From assembly GCA_026645875.1 (NCBI GenBank), contig JAPKMQ010000002.1, forward strand, positions 1 to 39,460: 39,460 nucleotides of DNA, given 5' to 3'. Position 1 is the first letter of the stretch; each line of letters opens with the position of its first letter. Shown piece after piece: positions 9,636 to 39,460 of the stretch. A model generated the notes under the pieces. The model had not been told where the DNA came from, did no database searches, and saw only the letters and a program-made list of their open reading frames with translations. The position numbers and the translations under genes are program-made. This DNA is from Longilinea sp. (GTDB lineage: Bacteria; Chloroflexota; Anaerolineae; Anaerolineales; Anaerolineaceae).

Positions 9636-10747
9636 TTTTTATCAGTTGTATACAGGGAATGAAATTCTCGAATGCAGACGTAATTCATCCCGCCAAGCTG
9701 GCGGATCATACCTTTAAGTTCCATGATAGCGAGTGTAGCCGAAACCTGTTCAATTGGCAAGCCGGTTTTAATTGAGATCTCGTCAATGTGCTGCGCTTCG
9801 CTGCCCAACGCGTCCAAAACGCGGGCTTCAATGCCGTCAGCGGGCAGGCTGCGCCGAGCGCTTACCTGTTCCTGAACCTGCTGTAGATGTAAAATTTCCA
9901 GCACGTCGTGCATTTCTAGCAACGGGTGCGCGCCCAGTTGGATCAAGCGGTTGGTGCCCTTGCTCTGCGGCGCCAGGATGCTGCCAGGAACCGCGAAGAC
10001 TTCACGGCCCTGTTCCACCGCAAAGGTGGCGGTGATCAACGCGCCGCTGGTTTCGCCGGCCTCGATCACCACGGTGGCCATCGAGAGCCCGGAGATGATG
10101 CGGTTGCGCGGCGGAAAATTGGTGCTGTCAGGCGGCGTGCCCGGGGCATAATCGCTGATGACCGCGCCGCGCCCAATGATTTGCCCGGCCAGGCGCTCAT
10201 GCTCTGGCGGGTAAATGCGGTCCACGCCGCTGCCCAGGACGGCGATCGTGCGGCCGCCGGATTTCATCACCGCTTCATGCGCAATTGCATCCACGCCGCG
10301 CGCCAACCCACTCACCACGGTGATGCCGTTCGCGCCCAGGTACGAGGCCAGTTCAGCAGCCACCTGACGCCCGTAAGGCGTGACCCGGCGCGTACCCACG
10401 ATGGCCACCGAAAAATCATCTTCAGGCAGCAATTCGCCGCGCACAAAAAGCACCGGCGGCGCCTGATCGATCTCCCGCAACCGTCGGGGATAGATTTCGT
10501 CCTCACGGATGACAACCTGGATGCCGCGCTCTTCGTAACCTGCCAGCAGGCCCTCCAGGTCAACGTCCTTCCGCAATTGCAGAAAGGATTCGATGATCTT
10601 CAGCGGGATACCAGCCGACATCAGAGCGTCGGCAGGCGCGTTCCAGGCAATTTCCAGGCTGCCGAAGTAATCCAGCAAAGCCTGCATGCGCACAGCGCCG
10701 ATACCTTTTACCAGGTTAAAGCCCACCCAATAGCAGCGGTGGTCCAT
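9632..10747 (-). CDS. dprA: DNA-processing protein DprA
   Basis: VAIVGTRRVTPYGRQVAAELASYLGANGITVVSGLARGVDAIAH..., FPPRNRIISGLS Rossmann-like DprA core. Overlaps manC start by 4 bp. Confidence 0.94.
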   Translation of the reverse strand: MDHRCYWVGFNLVKGIGAVRMQALLDYFGSLEIAWNAPADALMSAGIPLKIIESFLQLRKDVDLEGLLAGYEERGIQVVIREDEIYPRRLREIDQAPPVLFVRGELLPEDDFSVAIVGTRRVTPYGRQVAAELASYLGANGITVVSGLARGVDAIAHEAVMKSGGRTIAVLGSGVDRIYPPEHERLAGQIIGRGAVISDYAPGTPPDSTNFPPRNRIISGLSMATVVIEAGETSGALITATFAVEQGREVFAVPGSILAPQSKGTNRLIQLGAHPLLEMHDVLEILHLQQVQEQVSARRSLPADGIEARVLDALGSEAQHIDEISIKTGLPIEQVSATLAIMELKGMIRQLGGMNYVCIREFHSLYTTDKK

Positions 10748-28317: not shown

Positions 28318-28734
28318 ATGACAACGCTCACCTTTTCTGGGCGGTTCGACAGTCTGCCGATGATCGCGGATTTTGTTCGGATGTCGGCCCAAGAAGCCGG
28401 GTTAAGTTCGTTTCAGATTTACGCCGTCGAAACGGCGGTGGATGAGGCCTGCGCCAACATCATCGAACATGCTTACGGCGGCGAAGGCAAAGGCGATATC
28501 GAGTGTAGCTGCACGATCACTAAAAAGGGGTTGACCATTATCCTGCGCGATACGGGCCGCCCCTTCAATCCAAAAAACATCAAAAATCCAGATTTAAATT
28601 CGTCCCTGGAAGAGCGGTCTGACCACGGCCTGGGGCTCTACTTTATTCGTCAGTGGATGGATGATGTGGATTTTGAATTTAAACCCGGTAGCAACACGTT
28701 GACGATGTCCAAGTTCAAGGAAAAACAATCCTGA
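28318..28734 (+). CDS. RsbW/SpoIIAB-like anti-sigma regulatory kinase (HATPase_c_2)
   Basis: AVETAVDEACANIIEHAYGGEGKGDIECS...ILRDTGRPFNPKNI...DHGLGLYFIRQWMDDVDF. Confidence 0.92.
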   Translation: MTTLTFSGRFDSLPMIADFVRMSAQEAGLSSFQIYAVETAVDEACANIIEHAYGGEGKGDIECSCTITKKGLTIILRDTGRPFNPKNIKNPDLNSSLEERSDHGLGLYFIRQWMDDVDFEFKPGSNTLTMSKFKEKQS

Positions 28735-31700
28735 TGGTTTCCCCCGGGTTGGCTGCTGTTCCGGAGTGGAAACAGTTTCTTCACCTGGGCGAATCGCTCC
28801 TGGCTCAGCCCAATACGGCTGCGCAATGCGCCCTGATCGCCGAAACTGTCGAACGATTGCTCGGCGCACAGGCGGTTGTGTGGCTGTCGGATGCGCATTA
28901 TCCCCTCCCCAACGAGCCCGATGTCTTGCTCATCCCGTCGCCAGACGCGCCTGAGATCGTCAGGCAGGTGTACGATGACCACTATGCGGGCAGCGGGACG
29001 GCCAACGGCGGCCACCGTGCCGGGGGTAATCCTCCCCGCGAACTGTCCCTGCCAATCATTTCCCAGGGCAGCCTGCTGGGTGTACTGGCCGCGCGCCGCG
29101 AAAAAGGCCCGGCATTCCGTAAGGAAGAGATCAGCTTCCTGGAAGGCCTGGTCGCTCATGCGGCCAGCTCTCTGCAAATCTTCCGCCAGGTATCACTAAA
29201 AAATTGGCGTTCCGATCAACTCACCCTGGTACGTTCGGTAGCTGCGCAAATTGCCAACGTGACCGATCTCAACGAGCTGTGCCTGCGCGTCACCGAACTG
29301 ATTCAAAAGACCTTTTCGTATTACTACGTCGCCATTTTCACGCTGGATGCCAGCGGCGATTTCCTGCAATTTCGCGCCAGCGCTACGCAAGCCCAGGAAA
29401 ACCGCCAGACCGTCCTCAATGCCCGGGTCGGCGAGGGTATCATCGGGTACACCGTGCAGGCCGGAGAGGAGTATTACGTTCCAAATGTCCATCAGGATCC
29501 TCACTATCGATTCATTGATTCGTTGCCCGAGACCCAATCGGAGGTTGCCTTCCCACTGAGGATCGATCAGCGGGTCCTGGGCGTCCTGGATATTCAGAGC
29601 GACCAGCCTGACGCGTTTCACGAACTCGATCGGACGGTGCTGCGCGCTCTGGCGGATAATATCGCCACCGCGGTGGATGGCGCGCGCCTGTACTCGGATG
29701 TGCAGCGCCGCGCCGAGCAAATCTCAGCCGTAATTGATATCACCCATGCCCTCACTTCCATTCTGGATCTGGATACACTGCTGGAAACGGTGGTCGAAAC
29801 CATTCAAAAGCGGTTTGGCTACCCCTTTGTCCATCTGTATTCGGTCCATCCGGGCCGGCGGTTGATCTTTTACTGGGCAGGCAGCGGCCCGCGAAGCAAC
29901 GTTTTGCGCGAACAGCAAAACCAGGTTTCGCTGGATGATCCGGTCGGGATCATTCCGTGGGTGGCACGCACCGGCAAGGTCTTGTTGGCCAACGACGTCC
30001 AAAAAGAACCGCTTTACCGTTCCTCCGAATTGCCGCCCTTTGACATCTGCTCGGAAGTCGCGCTTCCGCTTTCCTACGGCGGCGAAACGCAAGCCATCCT
30101 GGATATTCAAAGCACTGCGTGCAACGCCTTTGACGAAAAGGATGTGTCCATCCTCGAGGCGCTGTCCGCGTCCATCGCCATCGCGCTGCGAAATGCGTCC
30201 CTGTACCGCTCTGAACAATGGCGCCGCCAGGTTGCCGACAGCTTCCGCGATGTGGCCAATCTGCTTAACGCGGATGTCGGGCTGGATGAATTGCTCAACA
30301 GCATCCTGCTGGAGTTGGAGAAGAACCTGCCCTGCAACGCTTCGGCCATCTGGCTTTACGAGGAGGATCCACGCGATCAGGGGCCGGGCGACCGCCTGAG
30401 ACTTGCCTATGCGCATGGCTTCACGCTTGAAAACATGCAACACATTCGGCAGGAGAACCCTACCATCAACCAGTCGTTGGAGGCCGCGCTTGAAAGCCCC
30501 GAGCCGATCATCCGCCGCCCCAGCGATCCGTTGGGTCCACTGGGCGCGGTGATGAACTTTGCTCCGGAATATTCCTCGATTACCGCACCCCTCATGGCAG
30601 GCGACCAGCCTTTGGGGGTACTTACGCTTGCCCATTCCACCTACGGGCGGTATGGCTCGGAAGCCCGCGCCATGACGGCCACCTTCGCCAGCTATGCCTC
30701 GTCGGCCATTCAAAATGCGCGCCTGTTCGCCGACGCGCAAGAGCAAGCCTGGGTATCCACCGTTCTGCTGCAGGTGGCCGAAGCCTGCCAGGCGCTGAAC
30801 ACGGTGGACGACCTGCTCGAAACCATGACGCGTCTTACCCCCCTCCTGGTGGGTATTAAGAATTGTGCCATCTTCCTCTTTGACTCCAATCGGCAGGCTT
30901 TCATCCTGAAAAACCTGTTCGGGATTGAGGGCCTCGAAAAGAACGTTACACCATTTTATGAATCGGAAGCTCCCGGTTTTCAGCAATTGCGCCTGACCCA
31001 GGCCCCGGTTTTTATCACAGACGCGAACACCGAACTGCTGCTGCCCGAAGCCGCCACTGGCGAAGGCGGAACGCTCGTGCTGATTCCGCTGATGACCCGC
31101 CAGGAAATCACCGGCGCGATGCTGGTGGGGCACCAGAACGACGACCTTCCAGGGTTCCACCAGTTCTTCAACCAGCAGACCCTGGCCATCCTGCAGGGCA
31201 TTGCCCACCAGACGGCCGTTGCCGTCGAAAACATTCAGTTGCTGGAGGTCCGCCAGGAGGAAGCCTACGTCACGGCAGTTCTGCTGCAGGTGGCTCAGGC
31301 GGTCGTCAGCCAGAACAACCTGACCGACATCCTGGATACCATTGGCCACCTGATGCCTATCCTGGTCGGCATCGACGCATGCATCATCTACCTGTGGGAC
31401 CGGGAACGCAAGCGGCTCGTCGCGGCGCAGGCTTTCACCGGCCAACGCCCATTGGACCAGCAGGTGATGGGTCAATCTTACGCCGCTGGTGAATTCGCGC
31501 TGCTGGATCAGACGGTCCAGACGGACTCGCCCTCCGCTTGCCGGCTTCCCGATCCAGCTTTTCCACCTACCGAATGGAATAACCTGCCCTGCCTATCGCC
31601 GGGCGAAATGCCAACTCCGGTGCAATCCGCCAACGGCGCCTGGGCATTGGGCTTTCCGCTTTCGGTCAAGGGCGAAGTTTACGGCGTGATGCTCACCCAG

Positions 31701-32576
31701 GAAACACACAGCAGCATCTCTTTTCACGAAAAACGGTTGGAAATCATCACCGGCATCGCGCAACAGGTTTCCCTGGCGATCCAAAACGAACGCCTCAACC
31801 AGGAAATGGTTGAACGCGAACGGCTGGATAAGGAAATCCAGCTCGCGCGTCAGATCCAGCGCACCTTCCTGCCCAGCGAATTGCCCTCCCTGCCCGGATG
31901 GGATCTGGACATCCGCTGGCAGACGGCCCGCCAGGTGGGCGGTGATTTCTACGACGTGTTCCATTCGCGCAAAGGCACTCTTGGCCTGGTAATCGCGGAT
32001 GTTTCGGACAAAGGCCTGCCAGCCGCTCTGTACATGACCGTCACGCGGACCCTCATCCGGGCATTTATGCAAAACACAGCCTCGCCCGGGCGCGTGCTCG
32101 ACCGGGTGAACAACCTGCTGATGATGGATTCGCAGAGCGGCATGTTCGTGACAACCGTCTATGCCTTGCTTGATCCGGTGGAGGGCCAACTGCTGTGCGC
32201 CAATGCCGGCCACAACCGCGCCTTGTTGTGGCGTTCGGCCAGCGGCGAATTGGAGCAGCTCCCCAAGGGCGAGATTGCTCTGGGCGTGCTCGAGAATGTG
32301 CACTATTCCGATCACAACCTGGTGATCCTGCCAGGCGATTGCCTGATCTTCTTCACGGATGGGCTCACGGAATGTTTTTCCGTTTCAGGCGAAACCTATG
32401 GGGAGGAACGCCTGCGCAGGGTGATCCGCTCCACCGCCGCCAAAGGCGTGCACTTTCTACTTCAGGAGATTGAAAAATCCGTTGTTGAATTCCGCGGCAA
32501 TGAACCCATCTCCGACGACGTCACGTTGCTGGCCATTCAGCGCCAACCTGCGGTGGCCGCGACCCCGAATAAATAA
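28734..32576 (+). CDS. Multi-GAF (about six) PP2C-type SpoIIE/RsbU-like phosphatase
   Basis: 1280 aa; C-terminal EIQLARQIQRTFLPSELPSLPGWDLDIRWQTARQVGGDFYDVF...LGLVIADVSDKGLPAALYM...NAGHNRALL...FFTDGLTECF...DDVTLLAI; repeated GAF-like segments upstream. Confidence 0.93.
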   Translation: MVSPGLAAVPEWKQFLHLGESLLAQPNTAAQCALIAETVERLLGAQAVVWLSDAHYPLPNEPDVLLIPSPDAPEIVRQVYDDHYAGSGTANGGHRAGGNPPRELSLPIISQGSLLGVLAARREKGPAFRKEEISFLEGLVAHAASSLQIFRQVSLKNWRSDQLTLVRSVAAQIANVTDLNELCLRVTELIQKTFSYYYVAIFTLDASGDFLQFRASATQAQENRQTVLNARVGEGIIGYTVQAGEEYYVPNVHQDPHYRFIDSLPETQSEVAFPLRIDQRVLGVLDIQSDQPDAFHELDRTVLRALADNIATAVDGARLYSDVQRRAEQISAVIDITHALTSILDLDTLLETVVETIQKRFGYPFVHLYSVHPGRRLIFYWAGSGPRSNVLREQQNQVSLDDPVGIIPWVARTGKVLLANDVQKEPLYRSSELPPFDICSEVALPLSYGGETQAILDIQSTACNAFDEKDVSILEALSASIAIALRNASLYRSEQWRRQVADSFRDVANLLNADVGLDELLNSILLELEKNLPCNASAIWLYEEDPRDQGPGDRLRLAYAHGFTLENMQHIRQENPTINQSLEAALESPEPIIRRPSDPLGPLGAVMNFAPEYSSITAPLMAGDQPLGVLTLAHSTYGRYGSEARAMTATFASYASSAIQNARLFADAQEQAWVSTVLLQVAEACQALNTVDDLLETMTRLTPLLVGIKNCAIFLFDSNRQAFILKNLFGIEGLEKNVTPFYESEAPGFQQLRLTQAPVFITDANTELLLPEAATGEGGTLVLIPLMTRQEITGAMLVGHQNDDLPGFHQFFNQQTLAILQGIAHQTAVAVENIQLLEVRQEEAYVTAVLLQVAQAVVSQNNLTDILDTIGHLMPILVGIDACIIYLWDRERKRLVAAQAFTGQRPLDQQVMGQSYAAGEFALLDQTVQTDSPSACRLPDPAFPPTEWNNLPCLSPGEMPTPVQSANGAWALGFPLSVKGEVYGVMLTQETHSSISFHEKRLEIITGIAQQVSLAIQNERLNQEMVERERLDKEIQLARQIQRTFLPSELPSLPGWDLDIRWQTARQVGGDFYDVFHSRKGTLGLVIADVSDKGLPAALYMTVTRTLIRAFMQNTASPGRVLDRVNNLLMMDSQSGMFVTTVYALLDPVEGQLLCANAGHNRALLWRSASGELEQLPKGEIALGVLENVHYSDHNLVILPGDCLIFFTDGLTECFSVSGETYGEERLRRVIRSTAAKGVHFLLQEIEKSVVEFRGNEPISDDVTLLAIQRQPAVAATPNK

Positions 32577-33296: not shown

Positions 33297-35696
33297 ATGA
33301 TGGTAACAACAATCACCCAACTGCTCAATGTGTTAACAGCGCCGCCAGGCAACCTGGTCTACCATACCGTGCTTGCTTTTTCAGTGGTCATGGCCCTGCA
33401 GGCGGCCATTTTCAACACAGCACGCATGTCCAGGCCCACCCACCGCCGAACAATGCTCGGTCTGGCTGTTGTGTTGGTCTTTCAGTTGGCCATGTTCCTG
33501 GCCAGCGGACTGGCCTGGCAGGGGCTGTTCAATGCCCATTTGCTTCTGCCGCCGCTTGACCGGGCCGTGCAATTTCTCTCGCTGGCATGGATCATCTGGA
33601 TGTGGGCCGCTCCCGCCCGCAACCGCGCGGCGGATGCCGGACTGGCGATTTTAACTTTGTTGGGAATCATCGCGCTGGTGTTTTCCTGGTCATCCTGGGG
33701 CGCAGCCGGCGCAGCGCTGCAGTTTAATGGCTCGTGGCTGGATTGGGTCTGGCAGATCGGTTCGCTGGCATTTGCCATCATCGGCATGATTGGCCTGGCA
33801 CTGAGCCGGCCTGCGCGTTGGGGCAGCGGGGTTGCATTCCTGTTGCTGGCCGGTTTCGGCATTGGCGCTCATCTGCTATTCACTCAAACGGATGCCGACC
33901 TGTCCGGTTTCATTCGCCTGGCATTGTTGTGCGCATTTCCGCTTCTCCCCGCATTGGCGCAACGAACCGCGCTGTCAACCGATAGCGAAACCAATCAGGC
34001 CGACCTGCCATCCACCAATGGCGTGGACGTGGAAGGTCGCAAACGGCTGGGCGGCGATCCAAGGACTATTTATGCCTGGCTGCAACTTGCCAATCAGGCC
34101 GAGCCGCAGGAGACAGGCATCGCGCTTACCCGCGCCGTAGCGCAAACCATGCTGGCCGACTTCACCTTCCTGGTCAAGATGGAGTCAAATCTGGGCAGTA
34201 TGGTGGTCGATTGTGGATATGATCTCATCCGGGAGGAGCCCATCACCGGCGCAAACCTTCCGCTCAGCCAGGTGCCGGCCCTGTTCAGCGCGCTTTCGCG
34301 CGGCAAACCCTTGCGCCTTGCCACCAACGGCACGCCCCCGCAGGACCTGGTAAGTCTGGCACGCGCGTTCGGGTTGAATGAATCCGGTCATCTGCTGGCT
34401 GTTCCTTTGATGTCCCAACCGGGCGCCTGGGGTGCGGGGTTGGTCCTGCTAACGCCGTATTCCACTCGTTTGTGGACTTCGGAAGATCAAAATTTTCTCA
34501 CCGGCATGACCGAATCGCTTAGCCAGGTCATCCAACGGGCTTCCGCAAAATCCGAAATTCATCTCAATGCCGAACAGGGTCAGTTTGAAATTCAGGACTT
34601 GCAGCGCCAAATGGAATCACTGCAAGCCGAACTTGCGCAAGCGCGGGAGCTCTCCTCAGCCCGAAGTTTGAAACTGGATGGTCAAATCTCCTCCGAAAAT
34701 GCCACCCCATCTGACCAGGCGACCTGGCTGGAGGTTCAGCAGGCGGCCCAGGAGGCCATTCTGCGCCTGGAAGCTGAAAACGAAGAACTGCGCCGGTTGC
34801 TGACGAAAAACCAGCCGGTTGCCCAGGCGGAAGAGGATAAAGAGTTCCTGGAAGCTGAAATGCGGTTGACCCTGGAAGAGGTGGCGCGGCTGCAAAACCA
34901 ACTGGCCGACGCCAATAAGCGCGCGGCACATCTGGAAAAGCTGGCTGCTGACGGCGAACGCCTGCCAGATGAAGAGCGCGAGATGATCGCATCGATTTAC
35001 CAGGAATTGCGCCAGCCGCTCTCCTCCATCGTCGGTTATACCGATCTGTTGCTGGGCGAATCGGTTGGCATCATTGGCGCACTGCAACGAAAGTTTCTCG
35101 AGCGAATCAAATCCTCCTCCGACCGCCTCCGTGCGCTCATCGACGACCTGTTGCGCATTTCCAACCTGCAACACGGCAGCAAAGATTTCAACCCGAAAGC
35201 CGTTGAACTCGAAGAAATTATTGACCAGGCCCTCACGGAGACCAGCGGCTACCTGCGGGATAAATCCATCACCCTGCAACTTGATCTTCCGGAGACACTG
35301 CCGTCCATCCACGCGGACCGGGATGCCCTGCAACAGGTCCTGGTTCAATTGATCCAGAACGCCGGCGCGGTCACGCCCGTCGAGGGAACGGTCAGCCTGC
35401 AGGTGGAAATCCAGGACAAGGCAGCCGATGGGCAGGCCGTCGCAATTCATGTGACCGATTGCGGCGGCGGAATTGCGCCTGAGGATCTGTCCCGGGTGTT
35501 TTCGCGCCGTTACCGCGCGGAAAACGCCCTGATTCAGGGCATCGGCGATACGGGCGTTGGCCTGTCCATCGTAAAAACCCTGGTGGAAATGCACGGTGGC
35601 CGCATCTGGGTGGACTCGACACCCGGCGAAGGCAGTATCTTCAGCATCCTGCTGCCGTTGCAGTCGGGCCAGGTATTGAAACAACCGCCCGCATGA
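33297..35696 (+). CDS. Membrane histidine-kinase-like protein (multi-TM, GAF-like, coiled coil, HisKA-like, HATPase_c) lacking the canonical phospho-acceptor His
   Basis: About seven hydrophobic segments; EMIASIYQELRQPLSSIVGYTDLLLGES in place of xxxHELRxPL; DCGGGIAPEDLSRVF (G1) and GDTGVGLSIVKTLVEMHGGRIWVDSTPGEGSIFSILLP (G2). Confidence 0.9.
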   Translation: MMVTTITQLLNVLTAPPGNLVYHTVLAFSVVMALQAAIFNTARMSRPTHRRTMLGLAVVLVFQLAMFLASGLAWQGLFNAHLLLPPLDRAVQFLSLAWIIWMWAAPARNRAADAGLAILTLLGIIALVFSWSSWGAAGAALQFNGSWLDWVWQIGSLAFAIIGMIGLALSRPARWGSGVAFLLLAGFGIGAHLLFTQTDADLSGFIRLALLCAFPLLPALAQRTALSTDSETNQADLPSTNGVDVEGRKRLGGDPRTIYAWLQLANQAEPQETGIALTRAVAQTMLADFTFLVKMESNLGSMVVDCGYDLIREEPITGANLPLSQVPALFSALSRGKPLRLATNGTPPQDLVSLARAFGLNESGHLLAVPLMSQPGAWGAGLVLLTPYSTRLWTSEDQNFLTGMTESLSQVIQRASAKSEIHLNAEQGQFEIQDLQRQMESLQAELAQARELSSARSLKLDGQISSENATPSDQATWLEVQQAAQEAILRLEAENEELRRLLTKNQPVAQAEEDKEFLEAEMRLTLEEVARLQNQLADANKRAAHLEKLAADGERLPDEEREMIASIYQELRQPLSSIVGYTDLLLGESVGIIGALQRKFLERIKSSSDRLRALIDDLLRISNLQHGSKDFNPKAVELEEIIDQALTETSGYLRDKSITLQLDLPETLPSIHADRDALQQVLVQLIQNAGAVTPVEGTVSLQVEIQDKAADGQAVAIHVTDCGGGIAPEDLSRVFSRRYRAENALIQGIGDTGVGLSIVKTLVEMHGGRIWVDSTPGEGSIFSILLPLQSGQVLKQPPA

Positions 35697-36433
35697 ACAT
35701 CGCCCGCGAATTCTTCAGAGGCATCCTTTCCGCCGGATTGATTCTGTTGGTGGTAGTTGGGGCGTTAATCATATCGCAGGTGGAACAAGCCGCAGCGCCT
35801 GCGGCAGAGCCGGATTCCGGCGAAATGCCCTTTGATTTTCCAACCGGCCTGGCCATTCTAAAAACGCCCACACCAGCGCAGGCCAGTCCGGCCGCCACCG
35901 CCACAATTGCGTGCGCCAAACCCACGGGCTGGCTGGAATATGCCGTCCAGGTTGGCGACACCTTGGTCGATCTGGCAGCCAGGGTCGCAGCGACGCCGGA
36001 CCAACTGCGCGAGGGCAACTGCCTGCTCAGCGACGAACTGGTGGCCGGAACGCTGCTCTATCTGCCGCCTGTCCAAGCCATGCGCACTTCAATGCCCACG
36101 CTGACACAGACGCCGGTTCCATGCGGTCCGCCTGTCGGATGGATATCTTACCGCGTCCAGTCGCAGGACACACTCTTTCGCATCAGCCTGGATTACGGCG
36201 TCAGCGTGCCGCAATTGCAATTTGCCAATTGCATGGGAAACTCTACTTTCCTGCGCACCGGTGAATTCATCTATGTGCCCAACGTGGCCACCCGCACCCC
36301 GGATTTTTCACCGACGCCGACTGGAACAAATATCCCCACGTTGACGTCTACACCTGAGACACAAACTGTGGAACCCTCCGCAACCGCCGACCTGACTGTG
36401 ACACCCACCGATTCGAGTTACCCTGCGCCATGA
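35693..36433 (+). CDS. Membrane-anchored double-LysM protein
   Basis: TM FRGILSAGLILLVVVGALIISQV; CAKPTGWLEYAVQVGDTLVDLAARV...NC and CGPPVGWISYRVQSQDTLFRISLDYGVSVPQLQFANC; ATGA overlap with the kinase-like gene. Confidence 0.85.
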   Translation: MNIAREFFRGILSAGLILLVVVGALIISQVEQAAAPAAEPDSGEMPFDFPTGLAILKTPTPAQASPAATATIACAKPTGWLEYAVQVGDTLVDLAARVAATPDQLREGNCLLSDELVAGTLLYLPPVQAMRTSMPTLTQTPVPCGPPVGWISYRVQSQDTLFRISLDYGVSVPQLQFANCMGNSTFLRTGEFIYVPNVATRTPDFSPTPTGTNIPTLTSTPETQTVEPSATADLTVTPTDSSYPAP

Positions 36434-36461: not shown

Positions 36462-37505
36462 ATGCGCAGATTATTAATCGTTTTTTCAATCCTGGTCCTG
36501 GTTTCGATCGCCTGCAATTTGCCTGGCCTCGCCAGCACCAGTTCCGGCACAGTACCGGTTGTCAATACATGGCAACTGGTCACACCAGACCCGAATGCAA
36601 CCGTCACACCCACGCCCTTCCAGCCTGGTGCAGCCACAACCACCCCGCCCATCCCACCTACCCAGCCCGGCCCCACCGCGACGCCAACTGAACAGGCTGA
36701 CGGATCCGGCCCGATCATCCATAACCTGAAAAGGCCTGATGGCCAGGTCAACATCATGATCCTGGGATCCGATTTCCGTCCCGGCGGTGGATCGCGCACG
36801 GATGTGATCATGCTGGCATCCGTTAACACAAAGAATGGCACCGTGAGCGTGATCTCTTTTCCCCGGGATGTGTATGTGTTCGTGCCCGGCCGCGGGATGG
36901 ACCGCTTGAATACGCCGTATGCCTATGAAGGCTTCCCGCTGCTCGCCGATACCATGGAATACAACTTCGGCGTACGGCCTGACCACTACATGATCACCAA
37001 TTTTTCCGGCTTTAAAGCCATAGTGGATACGCTCGGCGGGATCAACGTCTACGTAGGCGCTTACCTGCGCGACAAATGTGACCTGCCGGTGCGTGACTGG
37101 GAAGGCTATTGCAGCATATCCTCCGGCGCGACCTGGATGGACGGCGAAACCGCCTTGTGGTACGTGCGCTCCCGCTACACCACATCCGATCTCGACCGCA
37201 CCCGCCGGGAGCAGGAAGTGATGGAAGCTTTCTTCCGCCGCCTGATGAGCCTGAACGCGGTTGCCCGCGCGCCTGAACTATACCGCCTGTTCATCAGTTC
37301 GGTGGAAACCGATCTCGGCATCGATGATCTCTTGCCCATGGTAGGGATTGCCCCGCAACTGCTCAGCGATGACAGCCGCATCAGCCGGCATTTGATTGGG
37401 ATCAATTACCTTACCCCATATGTCACCGAGTTGGGCGCGCAGGTGCTCATTCCAAACCGTCCGGCTATCTGGGAGTTGATCAGGCAGGAAGTCTACGGGC
37501 AGTAA
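36462..37505 (+). CDS. LytR-CpsA-Psr (LCP) family protein, predicted lipoprotein or membrane-anchored
   Basis: NIMILGSDFRPGGGSRTDVIMLASVNTKNGTVSVISFPRDVYVFVPGRGMDRLNTPYAYEG...GVRPDHYMITNFSGFKAIVDTLGGINVYV...YVRSRYTTSDLDRTRREQEVMEAFFRR. Confidence 0.95.
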   Translation: MRRLLIVFSILVLVSIACNLPGLASTSSGTVPVVNTWQLVTPDPNATVTPTPFQPGAATTTPPIPPTQPGPTATPTEQADGSGPIIHNLKRPDGQVNIMILGSDFRPGGGSRTDVIMLASVNTKNGTVSVISFPRDVYVFVPGRGMDRLNTPYAYEGFPLLADTMEYNFGVRPDHYMITNFSGFKAIVDTLGGINVYVGAYLRDKCDLPVRDWEGYCSISSGATWMDGETALWYVRSRYTTSDLDRTRREQEVMEAFFRRLMSLNAVARAPELYRLFISSVETDLGIDDLLPMVGIAPQLLSDDSRISRHLIGINYLTPYVTELGAQVLIPNRPAIWELIRQEVYGQ

Positions 37506-37562: not shown

Positions 37563-37594
37563 AGTTTTACCTTATGACCTACACGAACTGCCAT

Positions 37595-37623
37595 TTGACA
37601 ACCGGTAGTAAATCATGTACACT
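37595..37623 (+). promoter_or_regulatory. Strong sigma70-like promoter for the recombinase-like gene
   Basis: TTGACA-N17-TACACT. Confidence 0.8.
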
Positions 37624-37666
37624 GTAACAAAGAAAGCTATACGCAAAAACCAGCAAGGAACCAGCG

Positions 37667-38569
37667 ATGTCTGAACCTTCACCCGCTGCACATATCACTG
37701 CGAACACTCCGCTCCTCCCCGCCATTCGCGCCTGGGAAATGTACCTGCTCGATCAGAGCCGCTCTCCCTACACGGTCAAAGCTTTCGTTGGCGACCTGCA
37801 ACTTCTTGCAGCGCACATGCCCCCCGACCGTCCGGTCGGCACGATCACCACCAAGGACCTCAATCAATTCTTGCAGTGGCTTCAAAATGGGCGCGGCATC
37901 CCGTGCAGCCCCAAGAGTCTCGCCCGGCGCATCACCTCCATCAAAGCGTTCTTTCGTTGGCTGGCGCAAAGCGGGCGGATTTCCCCCGATCCAGCCGAGA
38001 AGGTGCTGCAGCAGTCGGTGATGAGCCCGCTGCCCATCATCCTGACCCCTGAAGAAGAACAGCGGGTGATTGAGGTGGCGCATAAATATCGCGTTGCCAA
38101 AAAGCCGGACGCGCGCCCATACACGCTACTTATGCTTCTGCTGACGACGGGCATCAAAAAAGGCGAATGCCTGGCCCTCAACGTCAACCACATCGACCTG
38201 GAAAGTCCCGGCGGCCCGATCCTTTTCATCCGCTACGCCACCCCGCGCTCGCGCTACAAGGAACGCAAAATCGACCTGACGCCAGAATGGGTGGATAGTT
38301 ACCGCGAATACCTGGCGCAATACACCCCGCGCGATACCATCTTTCCGTGGTCGCCGCGCCGGCTGGAATACCTGTTGGAAGACCTTGGCGAAGAAGCTGG
38401 TCTGGAAAAGCATTTATCCTTCGACATGTGCCGCTGGACAAGCGTGTTGAACGACTGGCGGGCCGGAATCGAGCACGACCAGATCCGCCAGAAAATGGGC
38501 ATCTCGAAAATTCAATGGCGCGAAATCAATTTTAAATTGCGCAGGCTATCCGGCGAAGTGGCTGCCTGA
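37667..38569 (+). CDS. Tyrosine-recombinase-fold (XerC/D-like) protein with degenerate catalytic residues
   Basis: N-terminal SAM-like core-binding region (AIRAWEMYLLDQSRSPYTVKAFVGDLQLLAAHM...SLARRITSIKAFFRWLAQSGRISPDPAEKV); catalytic-domain region LLMLLLTTGIKKGECLALNVNHIDLE. Confidence 0.88.
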   Translation: MSEPSPAAHITANTPLLPAIRAWEMYLLDQSRSPYTVKAFVGDLQLLAAHMPPDRPVGTITTKDLNQFLQWLQNGRGIPCSPKSLARRITSIKAFFRWLAQSGRISPDPAEKVLQQSVMSPLPIILTPEEEQRVIEVAHKYRVAKKPDARPYTLLMLLLTTGIKKGECLALNVNHIDLESPGGPILFIRYATPRSRYKERKIDLTPEWVDSYREYLAQYTPRDTIFPWSPRRLEYLLEDLGEEAGLEKHLSFDMCRWTSVLNDWRAGIEHDQIRQKMGISKIQWREINFKLRRLSGEVAA

Positions 38570-38576
38570 ATAGATC

Positions 38577-38598
38577 CCGGCGTCCAAGTGGACGCCGG
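38577..38598 (+). terminator. Intrinsic terminator after the recombinase-like gene
   Basis: CCGGCGTCC-AAGT-GGACGCCGG followed by TTATTTTTTCC; abuts the tilS stop codon on the opposite strand. Confidence 0.85.
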
Positions 38599-39460
38599 TT
38601 ATTTTTTCCGCTGCACAACCAGGTGAATACTGCGGGCGGTGGTTGGTCGAAGGCGCGCCTGGTGGCCTGGCGCAAAACCGGGTACCCAGACAATCTCATC
38701 TCCGCAGACCACCAGCGGCCAATGCTTGCGCGCATCGGCCGGTATCTTATGGTTAATCCAGAAGTCCGAAAGTTTCTGACTGCCTTGTGGCATTCCCAGC
38801 GGTTGAACGCGGTCCCCGCTGCGTGAACGCCGAAGGTGGAGGGGGCCTGGCAGCGCACCGGCATCCACCCAGACTTCCAATTGCAGGCCGTCGTGCGCCA
38901 GAGACCATTCACCTTGTTTGGGTGGGTCGCAATCCTCGGCCAGCAAAAACCAACCTTCCCCCAGGGCGATCGGCTTGTTGAGCGCAACCGGTAGCGGATC
39001 CGCCACCAACATGCATGGGAAACGGCCGGTATCCCGGGGCATCTTCTGATCCTCCATCAAAAGAATGTCAGCGGTTTTACGCAGGAGGAGTTGGTCGCCG
39101 AGTTCGATTTTTTGACCGGGAGCGCCGGATTGAAGGTGCTCGACCGCGCGCAACGACTGCTTGAGCGATAACCCATCCCCCACCGGGCGTAGTTTTGCCG
39201 CCCCGCGGCGCAGCAATCGCCGTTGCAGCGCTTCGGGTTGGTCTCGCAGCGCAGCCAGATCAAAACGGATCGAGCCAGGGGTATGTTCCACCACGCAGTT
39301 CTGCCAGGCCGCATCCTCTATCGCGTCCATCAATTGCAGATCGTCCGCGGCCAGATGCGAGAAGTTCAAAATCCGCTGGCGTGCGCCGGCCGCCAGGCCC
39401 TCCAGCACGGGGATTAAATCCAGGCGAACGCGGTTGCGAAGATACGTGCGCTCCAGGTTG
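38599..39460 (-). CDS. tilS: tRNA(Ile)-lysidine synthase, C-terminal part, 5' end truncated by window edge
   Basis: Reading from the edge: NLERTYLRNRVRLDLIPVLEGL...; C-terminal LHLRRSRSGDRVQPLGMPQGSQKLSDFWINHKIPADARKHWPLVVCGDEIVWVPGF. Confidence 0.9.
   Translation of the reverse strand, partial: NLERTYLRNRVRLDLIPVLEGLAAGARQRILNFSHLAADDLQLMDAIEDAAWQNCVVEHTPGSIRFDLAALRDQPEALQRRLLRRGAAKLRPVGDGLSLKQSLRAVEHLQSGAPGQKIELGDQLLLRKTADILLMEDQKMPRDTGRFPCMLVADPLPVALNKPIALGEGWFLLAEDCDPPKQGEWSLAHDGLQLEVWVDAGALPGPLHLRRSRSGDRVQPLGMPQGSQKLSDFWINHKIPADARKHWPLVVCGDEIVWVPGFAPGHQARLRPTTARSIHLVVQRKK

Follow-up and report, generated by a model that had tools for sequence, protein, structure and literature searches.

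The window analyzed here is a 39,460-nucleotide stretch of contig JAPKMQ010000002.1 (assembly GCA_026645875.1) from Longilinea sp., a member of the Anaerolineae (phylum Chloroflexota), read on the forward strand. It contains an intact ATG frame whose 300-residue product is a dead Xer-type tyrosine-recombinase paralogue, as judged from the open reading frame, Pfam and NCBIfam searches, AlphaFold2 and Foldseek, and comparison of orthologues. The features of the locus are as follows.

37595 to 37623, + strand: promoter, with a -35 box TTGACA (37595 to 37600), a 17-nt spacer, and a -10 box TACACT (37618 to 37623)
37637 to 37647, + strand: conserved oriented cis-element CTATACGCAAA, family consensus CTAYRCGMA, the proposed autoregulatory half-site
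37667 to 38569, + strand: gene of the dead Xer-type paralogue
37730 to 37969, + strand: core-binding domain (SAM-like, N-terminal, DNA-grasping), residues ~22 to 101, placed by PF02899 and conservation
38042 to 38566, + strand: former catalytic domain, residues ~126 to 300, placed by PF00589, the XerD alignment, and 121 plus 20 homologues
38577 to 38608, + strand: intrinsic terminator, with a 9-bp stem (38577 to 38598) and then a T-rich tail, between the dead gene and convergent tilS
38599 to 39459, - strand: convergent tilS (tRNA lysidine synthetase), truncated where the contig ends, a neighbor outside the proposed system

In 21 wide Anaerolineae loci, the neighbor seen most often beside the dead gene was a convergent downstream tilS-type gene (10 loci), followed by a LytR-CpsA-Psr gene on the upstream side (9 loci); LysM genes lay upstream in 6 of the 21, and no neighbor was linked universally. 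The neighbors differ in Chloroflexota cousins outside the Anaerolineae. The conserved neighbor genes showed neither a transposase nor a phage context, and PADLOC returned no match and, therefore, no tie to a known defense system. Elsewhere in the window, positions 28734 to 32576 encode a 1,280-residue protein in which six GAF-domain stretches are combined with a SpoIIE phosphatase at the C terminus; it is followed by a histidine kinase (33297 to 35696), a LysM protein (35693 to 36433), and a LytR-CpsA-Psr protein (36462 to 37505).

Domain composition and predicted fold

Both domains of the tyrosine-recombinase fold superfamily, core-binding and catalytic, were recognized above the Pfam gathering cut-offs, PF02899 (Phage_int_SAM_1) at residues 22 to 101 with 44.1 bits and PF00589 (Phage_integrase) at residues 126 to 282 with 36.2 bits, and the predicted fold matched this assignment. 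An AlphaFold2 model made with 60 orthologues as input had a mean pLDDT of 93.2, and its best PDB matches in Foldseek were XerA (E = 4.8e-13), XerH, lambda Int, Tn1549 Int, and Cre. The TM-scores were moderate (0.4 to 0.64), which could reflect differing domain angles between apo and DNA-bound forms. The protein is basic (pI 9.3), and core-binding residues T36, F40, D43, K83, R87, R88, K93, and F96 are 98 to 100% conserved among 134 homologues. The original prediction of an intact frame with its own promoter and terminator, encoding a recombinase-fold protein with a retained core-binding N terminus, thus held in all of these respects.

The nearest sequence profiles were those of XerC, XerD, and XerA (TIGR02224, TIGR02225, and NF040815), with which the protein shares its fold and length class, and XerA (5hxy) and XerH (5jk0) were among the nearest solved structures. 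However, the protein lies far below every curated cut-off. It scored 79.8 bits against the NCBIfam XerD profile (cut-off, 329.6; E = 2e-22) and 72.5 bits against that of XerC (cut-off, 335.15; E = 4e-20), or about one-quarter of the curated value in each case, and so does not score as an active XerC or XerD. It is further set apart by its catalytic residues and by its separate clade, as described below.

Loss of the catalytic residues

Catalytic positions were read against E. coli XerD, taken from MG1655. R148 of XerD corresponds to K164 of the window protein, K172 to S195, H244 to D253, H270 to I279, and the nucleophile Y279 to N288; R247 (ArgII) is kept as R256, directly followed by W257. 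Five of the six catalytic residues are therefore lost, with ArgII the sole one remaining, and the protein lacks the R-K-H-R-H-Y set that is required of active XerC/XerD-type tyrosine recombinases. In 10 active recombinases included in the same alignment, R/H/R/H/Y were kept at the five corresponding positions. The substitutions at ArgI, at the box III His, and at the nucleophile had all been read correctly in the original prediction. Its reading of box II, where FDMCRW was said to have lost both His and Arg, was right for the His only, since R256 is in register. Likewise, the KER-type Lys that it had noted is present (K198) but is not the catalytic Lys; it aligns with the Lys of the XerD KER, 3 residues after the catalytic K172, in a hairpin that is the least certain stretch of the XerD alignment.

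Whether homologues share these substitutions was a check proposed with the original prediction; replacements of like kind proved to be fixed throughout the family, in agreement with its claim of catalytic death. Among 121 Anaerolineae sequences, 116 have Lys at the ArgI position and 3 have Arg (L211 to L213); these three still lack both His residues and the Tyr. The HisII position is D, E, A, S, N, or L and the HisIII position L, I, or V in 121/121; the former Tyr position is variable, as is the catalytic-Lys position in the family (N, H, Y, M, S, and others). ArgII is invariant, both in the 121 Anaerolineae sequences and in 20/20 other Chloroflexota homologues. In 13 plus 7 cousins outside the Anaerolineae, ArgI is Lys, Thr, or Ser, HisII is Gln or Lys, HisIII is Leu or Ala, and ArgII is again kept. 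No Tyr lies in the nucleophile helix of the window protein, and none of the homologues found within the dead clade has a complete catalytic set; thus, nothing that had been named in advance as speaking against catalytic death was encountered.

The cousins (L097 to L116) carry a Tyr 3 residues past the usual nucleophile position, in 13/13 and 7/7 sequences (EKYRKLAF and RRYIRLA). This Tyr was not taken as a nucleophile because ArgI and both His residues are gone; the corresponding position is Leu, Ile, or Val in 121/121 Anaerolineae sequences.

Distribution, descent, and selection

Orthologues were found in ~57 of 61 relatives and in ~125 of 150 Anaerolineae genomes sampled, nearly always in single copy; the remaining four of the 61 relatives had nothing or a weak match to ordinary recombinases. 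Two genomes of the class (G077 and G119) have two or three copies of the family, against the single-copy rule. When 301 genomes of the phylum were searched with a profile, 81 had matches at E <= 1e-30, and these matches included full-length relatives from beyond the Anaerolineae. When the dead sequences of the Anaerolineae and of other Chloroflexota were placed in a tree with 21 active recombinases, a branch supported at 100/100 separated all dead sequences from the active ones (quick tree, 79 rows). No full-length homologue was found in plasmid and phage collections, where matches were partial (<80% cover) with <60% identity and, where annotated, were ordinary tyrosine recombinases.

The protein is 98% identical to that of a Longilinea metagenome-assembled genome (MAG) and 90% identical to the copy in a named close relative, Longilinea arvoryzae KOME-1, and dN/dS values of 0.016 and 0.049 were obtained against two Longilinea relatives. 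Since like replacements are fixed family-wide and dN/dS is this low, more than chance or local decay must be involved. These computations show that the dead sequences are monophyletic, that the catalytic set is lost and the loss fixed, and that the gene is under purifying selection; the protein would most likely be a domesticated Xer paralogue, inherited vertically in the Chloroflexota. Judging from the sequences, the cutting chemistry was lost long ago and the gene has been kept under strong selection across the Anaerolineae.

Other tyrosine recombinases in the genome

Three further tyrosine recombinases are encoded in the genome from which the window was taken. One of them, L063 (contig C332, positions 9642 to 10643), retains R-K-H-R-H-Y on reading of its sequence, so that an intact tyrosine recombinase is present elsewhere in the genome, and recombinases of the L063 type are present in 41 of the 61 relatives. 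There was no strong canonical XerD-type match in this genome (best, 2.4e-31; assembly ~91% complete), and other tested members of its order were likewise without one. L063, of a type conserved in much of the order, may be a candidate replacement dimer resolvase there, since canonical XerD-type recombinases of the order score weakly or are missing.

Co-occurrence was counted in 150 Anaerolineae genomes with boundaries set by hand (~E 1e-70 for canonical XerD and ~E 1e-19 for the dead gene). The dead gene was accompanied by canonical XerD in 87 genomes and present without it in 38; 21 genomes had canonical XerD only and 4 had neither. It thus occurs in 87/108 genomes having canonical XerD versus 38/42 lacking one (Fisher P value = 0.22). 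Because it is present in 38 of the 42 genomes without canonical XerD, its presence is independent of that enzyme, and the counts argue against an obligate XerD partner; the original suggestion of a Xer accessory protein was not borne out.

A conserved element at the promoter of the dead gene

The cis-element CTATACGCAAA lies 13 bp past the -10 box of the dead gene. Nearly all close orthologues for which upstream sequence exists have CTATACG(A/C)AA or a close variant directly past the -10 box, and CTA[TC][AG]CG[AC][AT] occurs on the coding strand upstream of 71 of 100 orthologues, compared to a mean of 1.8 and a maximum of 5 in shuffled sequences. The element is oriented (71 forward-strand versus 2 reverse-strand occurrences of CTAYRCGMA in the 100 upstream regions) and concentrated (14.8 per kb over the upstream 60 bp versus 0.07 per kb in the remainder of those loci). 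Of the 71 motif-bearing orthologues, 60 have a promoter-like pair ahead of the element, mostly 7 to 19 bp away. Its distances to the -10 box and to the start codon both vary among orthologues, the leader sequence flanking it is not conserved, and Rfam families gave only subthreshold matches in the leader. Several orthologues have two direct copies of the motif, 12 to 13 bp apart; the ~11-bp length together with this tandem spacing would fit one monomer per motif copy. The motif had no match in 29 of the 100 orthologues, some of which have good promoters, and no dif-like inverted repeat was seen by eye around it in the leader of the window, so that the motif is unlike dif in this respect. Because the two nearest Longilinea relatives lack it, a second copy (CTACACGAA) at 37579 to 37587, on the upstream side of the -35 box, was regarded as a chance occurrence.

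The exact sequence CTATACGMAAA occurs once in the 3.07-Mb genome from which the window derives, at the promoter of the dead gene. In 61 genomes, the composite pattern TTGACA-N26-44-CTAYRCGMA was found, by our count, 30 times at the dead gene and 22 times elsewhere, compared to 34 occurrences of the reversed control. Since occurrences elsewhere are at background, the element is specific to the dead gene. A search for a regulon by genome-wide motif occurrences gave no enrichment over the reversed-pattern control, either in the window genome or in the 61 genomes; therefore, no regulon is visible.

Comparison with known systems

Binding can outlast catalysis in this superfamily. In Cre and Flp, the active-site ArgI and ArgII are each nonessential for target-site binding (PMC4381057), and Tn1549 Int with an ArgI-to-Lys change (R225K) is inactive but still forms a DNA complex, which has been crystallized (PMC5871717). 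The closest functional parallel is MrpR, the master repressor of Bacillus phage SPbeta, in which a dead tyrosine-recombinase fold serves as a repressor and whose authors surmised that such recruitment is more widespread (PMC10516654). Like MrpR, the dead paralogue has a two-domain tyrosine-recombinase fold in which most catalytic residues are replaced, and it combines this loss with a fold kept under selection. MrpR has lost recombinase function and acts as a repressor at a conserved promoter element, of which the element at the promoter of the dead gene may be the counterpart. However, MrpR is prophage encoded, keeps Lys169 and Tyr304, has V257/R258 at the ArgII position, and targets SPBRE sites that are repeated in the prophage (PMC10516654), whereas the dead paralogue is chromosomal and class-wide, keeps ArgII but neither Lys nor Tyr, and has its visible element only at its own promoter. 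MrpR was not among the PDB sequence matches to the dead paralogue at E values up to 1. On the best reading, the Chloroflexota family is independent of MrpR and vertically inherited on the chromosome.

Two other systems show reuse of this fold after loss of catalysis. TnsF of Tn6022 is a target selector whose tyrosine-recombinase domain is inactivated, and it resembles the dead paralogue in having a dead fold for sequence-specific DNA targeting, but it is transposon encoded and has N-terminal zinc fingers and a TniQ partner (PMC10293859). A Pfam search of the dead paralogue gave no zinc finger, and no TniQ was present among the conserved neighbors annotated, which places it outside the TnsF type. 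The DUF3504/Crypton-derived animal genes are an ancient domestication in which catalysis was lost and many products became transcriptional regulators; these genes are eukaryotic, many have extra DNA-binding domains, and they have lost the Tyr and the second Arg (PMC3212892), the latter being invariant in the dead paralogue. Reuse of a dead tyrosine recombinase for DNA binding is thus already known from MrpR, TnsF, and the Crypton-derived genes. The bacterial examples so far are a phage repressor and a transposon target selector; our literature searches, which covered open-access papers, turned up no class-wide chromosomal family in bacteria that has a promoter element of this kind. The dead Xer paralogue provides a chromosomal example, conserved in most of the sampled Anaerolineae genomes, whose promoter offers a ready-made test site in the form of a short oriented element.

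Proposed function and alternatives

That the protein is catalytically dead and kept for putative DNA binding is well supported, indirectly, by the fixed substitutions, purifying selection, conserved core-binding domain, predicted fold, and high pI. Beyond this, we consider the chances about even that the domesticated paralogue binds DNA at half-sites and acts as a repressor of its own promoter. The protein would grip one 11- to 13-bp half-site with its core-binding and former catalytic domains as a C-shaped clamp, in which K164 and R256 could continue to hold the phosphate but the loss of His, Lys, and Tyr would prevent strand cutting. CTAYRCGMA past its own -10 box would represent one such half-site, and its occupancy would block transcription. 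We infer the DNA binding, the assignment of the element as the protein's own site, and the repression alike, the half-site clamp from the precedents of Cre, Flp, Tn1549 Int R225K, and MrpR and the autorepression from the position of the element. More tentatively, and with somewhat less than an even chance, the family may represent an ancient chromosomal line of transcription factors or architectural proteins that arose from a dead Xer early in the phylum, outside the usual bacterial regulator folds, and that is self-controlling, nearly class-universal, and active as a monomeric clamp on single 11- to 13-bp half-sites.

Another regulator acting at the 5' element, or an RNA-level role in the leader, would leave the same footprint as autoregulation, and the protein would then bind DNA in some unrelated way. 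The strand orientation of the element, its location at the start of the predicted transcript, and its variable distances to the -10 box and start codon are consistent with this, but the flanking leader is not conserved, no known RNA family scored above threshold, and the element recurs only at the dead gene, the pattern expected of simple autoregulation; we regard this explanation as rather unlikely. An architectural or nucleoid protein acting on many degenerate sites or on DNA junctions, for which any autoregulation would be a side effect, is likewise improbable. Class-wide conservation near core-gene level, a basic protein with conserved core-binding residues, and the absence of an operon partner favor such a role, but the exact motif is not abundant in genomes and tyrosine recombinases bind DNA site specifically.

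Less probable still is a Xer accessory factor, either a noncatalytic partner of an active Xer at dif (for XerC or XerD) or a modulator of chromosome dimer resolution. Independence from canonical XerD speaks against it, many relatives with the dead gene also lack an L063-type recombinase, and neither a dif-like inverted repeat at the locus nor linkage to another recombinase among the conserved neighbors examined was found; on the other side stand the nearest profiles (XerD and XerC), the active tyrosine recombinases that coexist in the genome, including L063, and the chromosomal, vertical, mostly single-copy nature of the dead gene. Finally, the intact fold and ArgII and the conserved downstream Tyr of the cousins might suggest that recombinase activity persists through an unorthodox active site, or else that the gene is a decaying pseudogene or integrase remnant. 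Both are highly implausible: the Tyr position of the cousins is Leu, Ile, or Val throughout the Anaerolineae, the whole family has replacements at both His positions and at the Tyr, and nearly all of it at ArgI, dN/dS (0.02 to 0.05) argues against decay, and the conserved genes include no mobile-element neighbors. Annotation pipelines would probably name the dead paralogue XerC/XerD or integrase; therefore, gene-based claims on Chloroflexota Xer systems or mobile elements may be affected.
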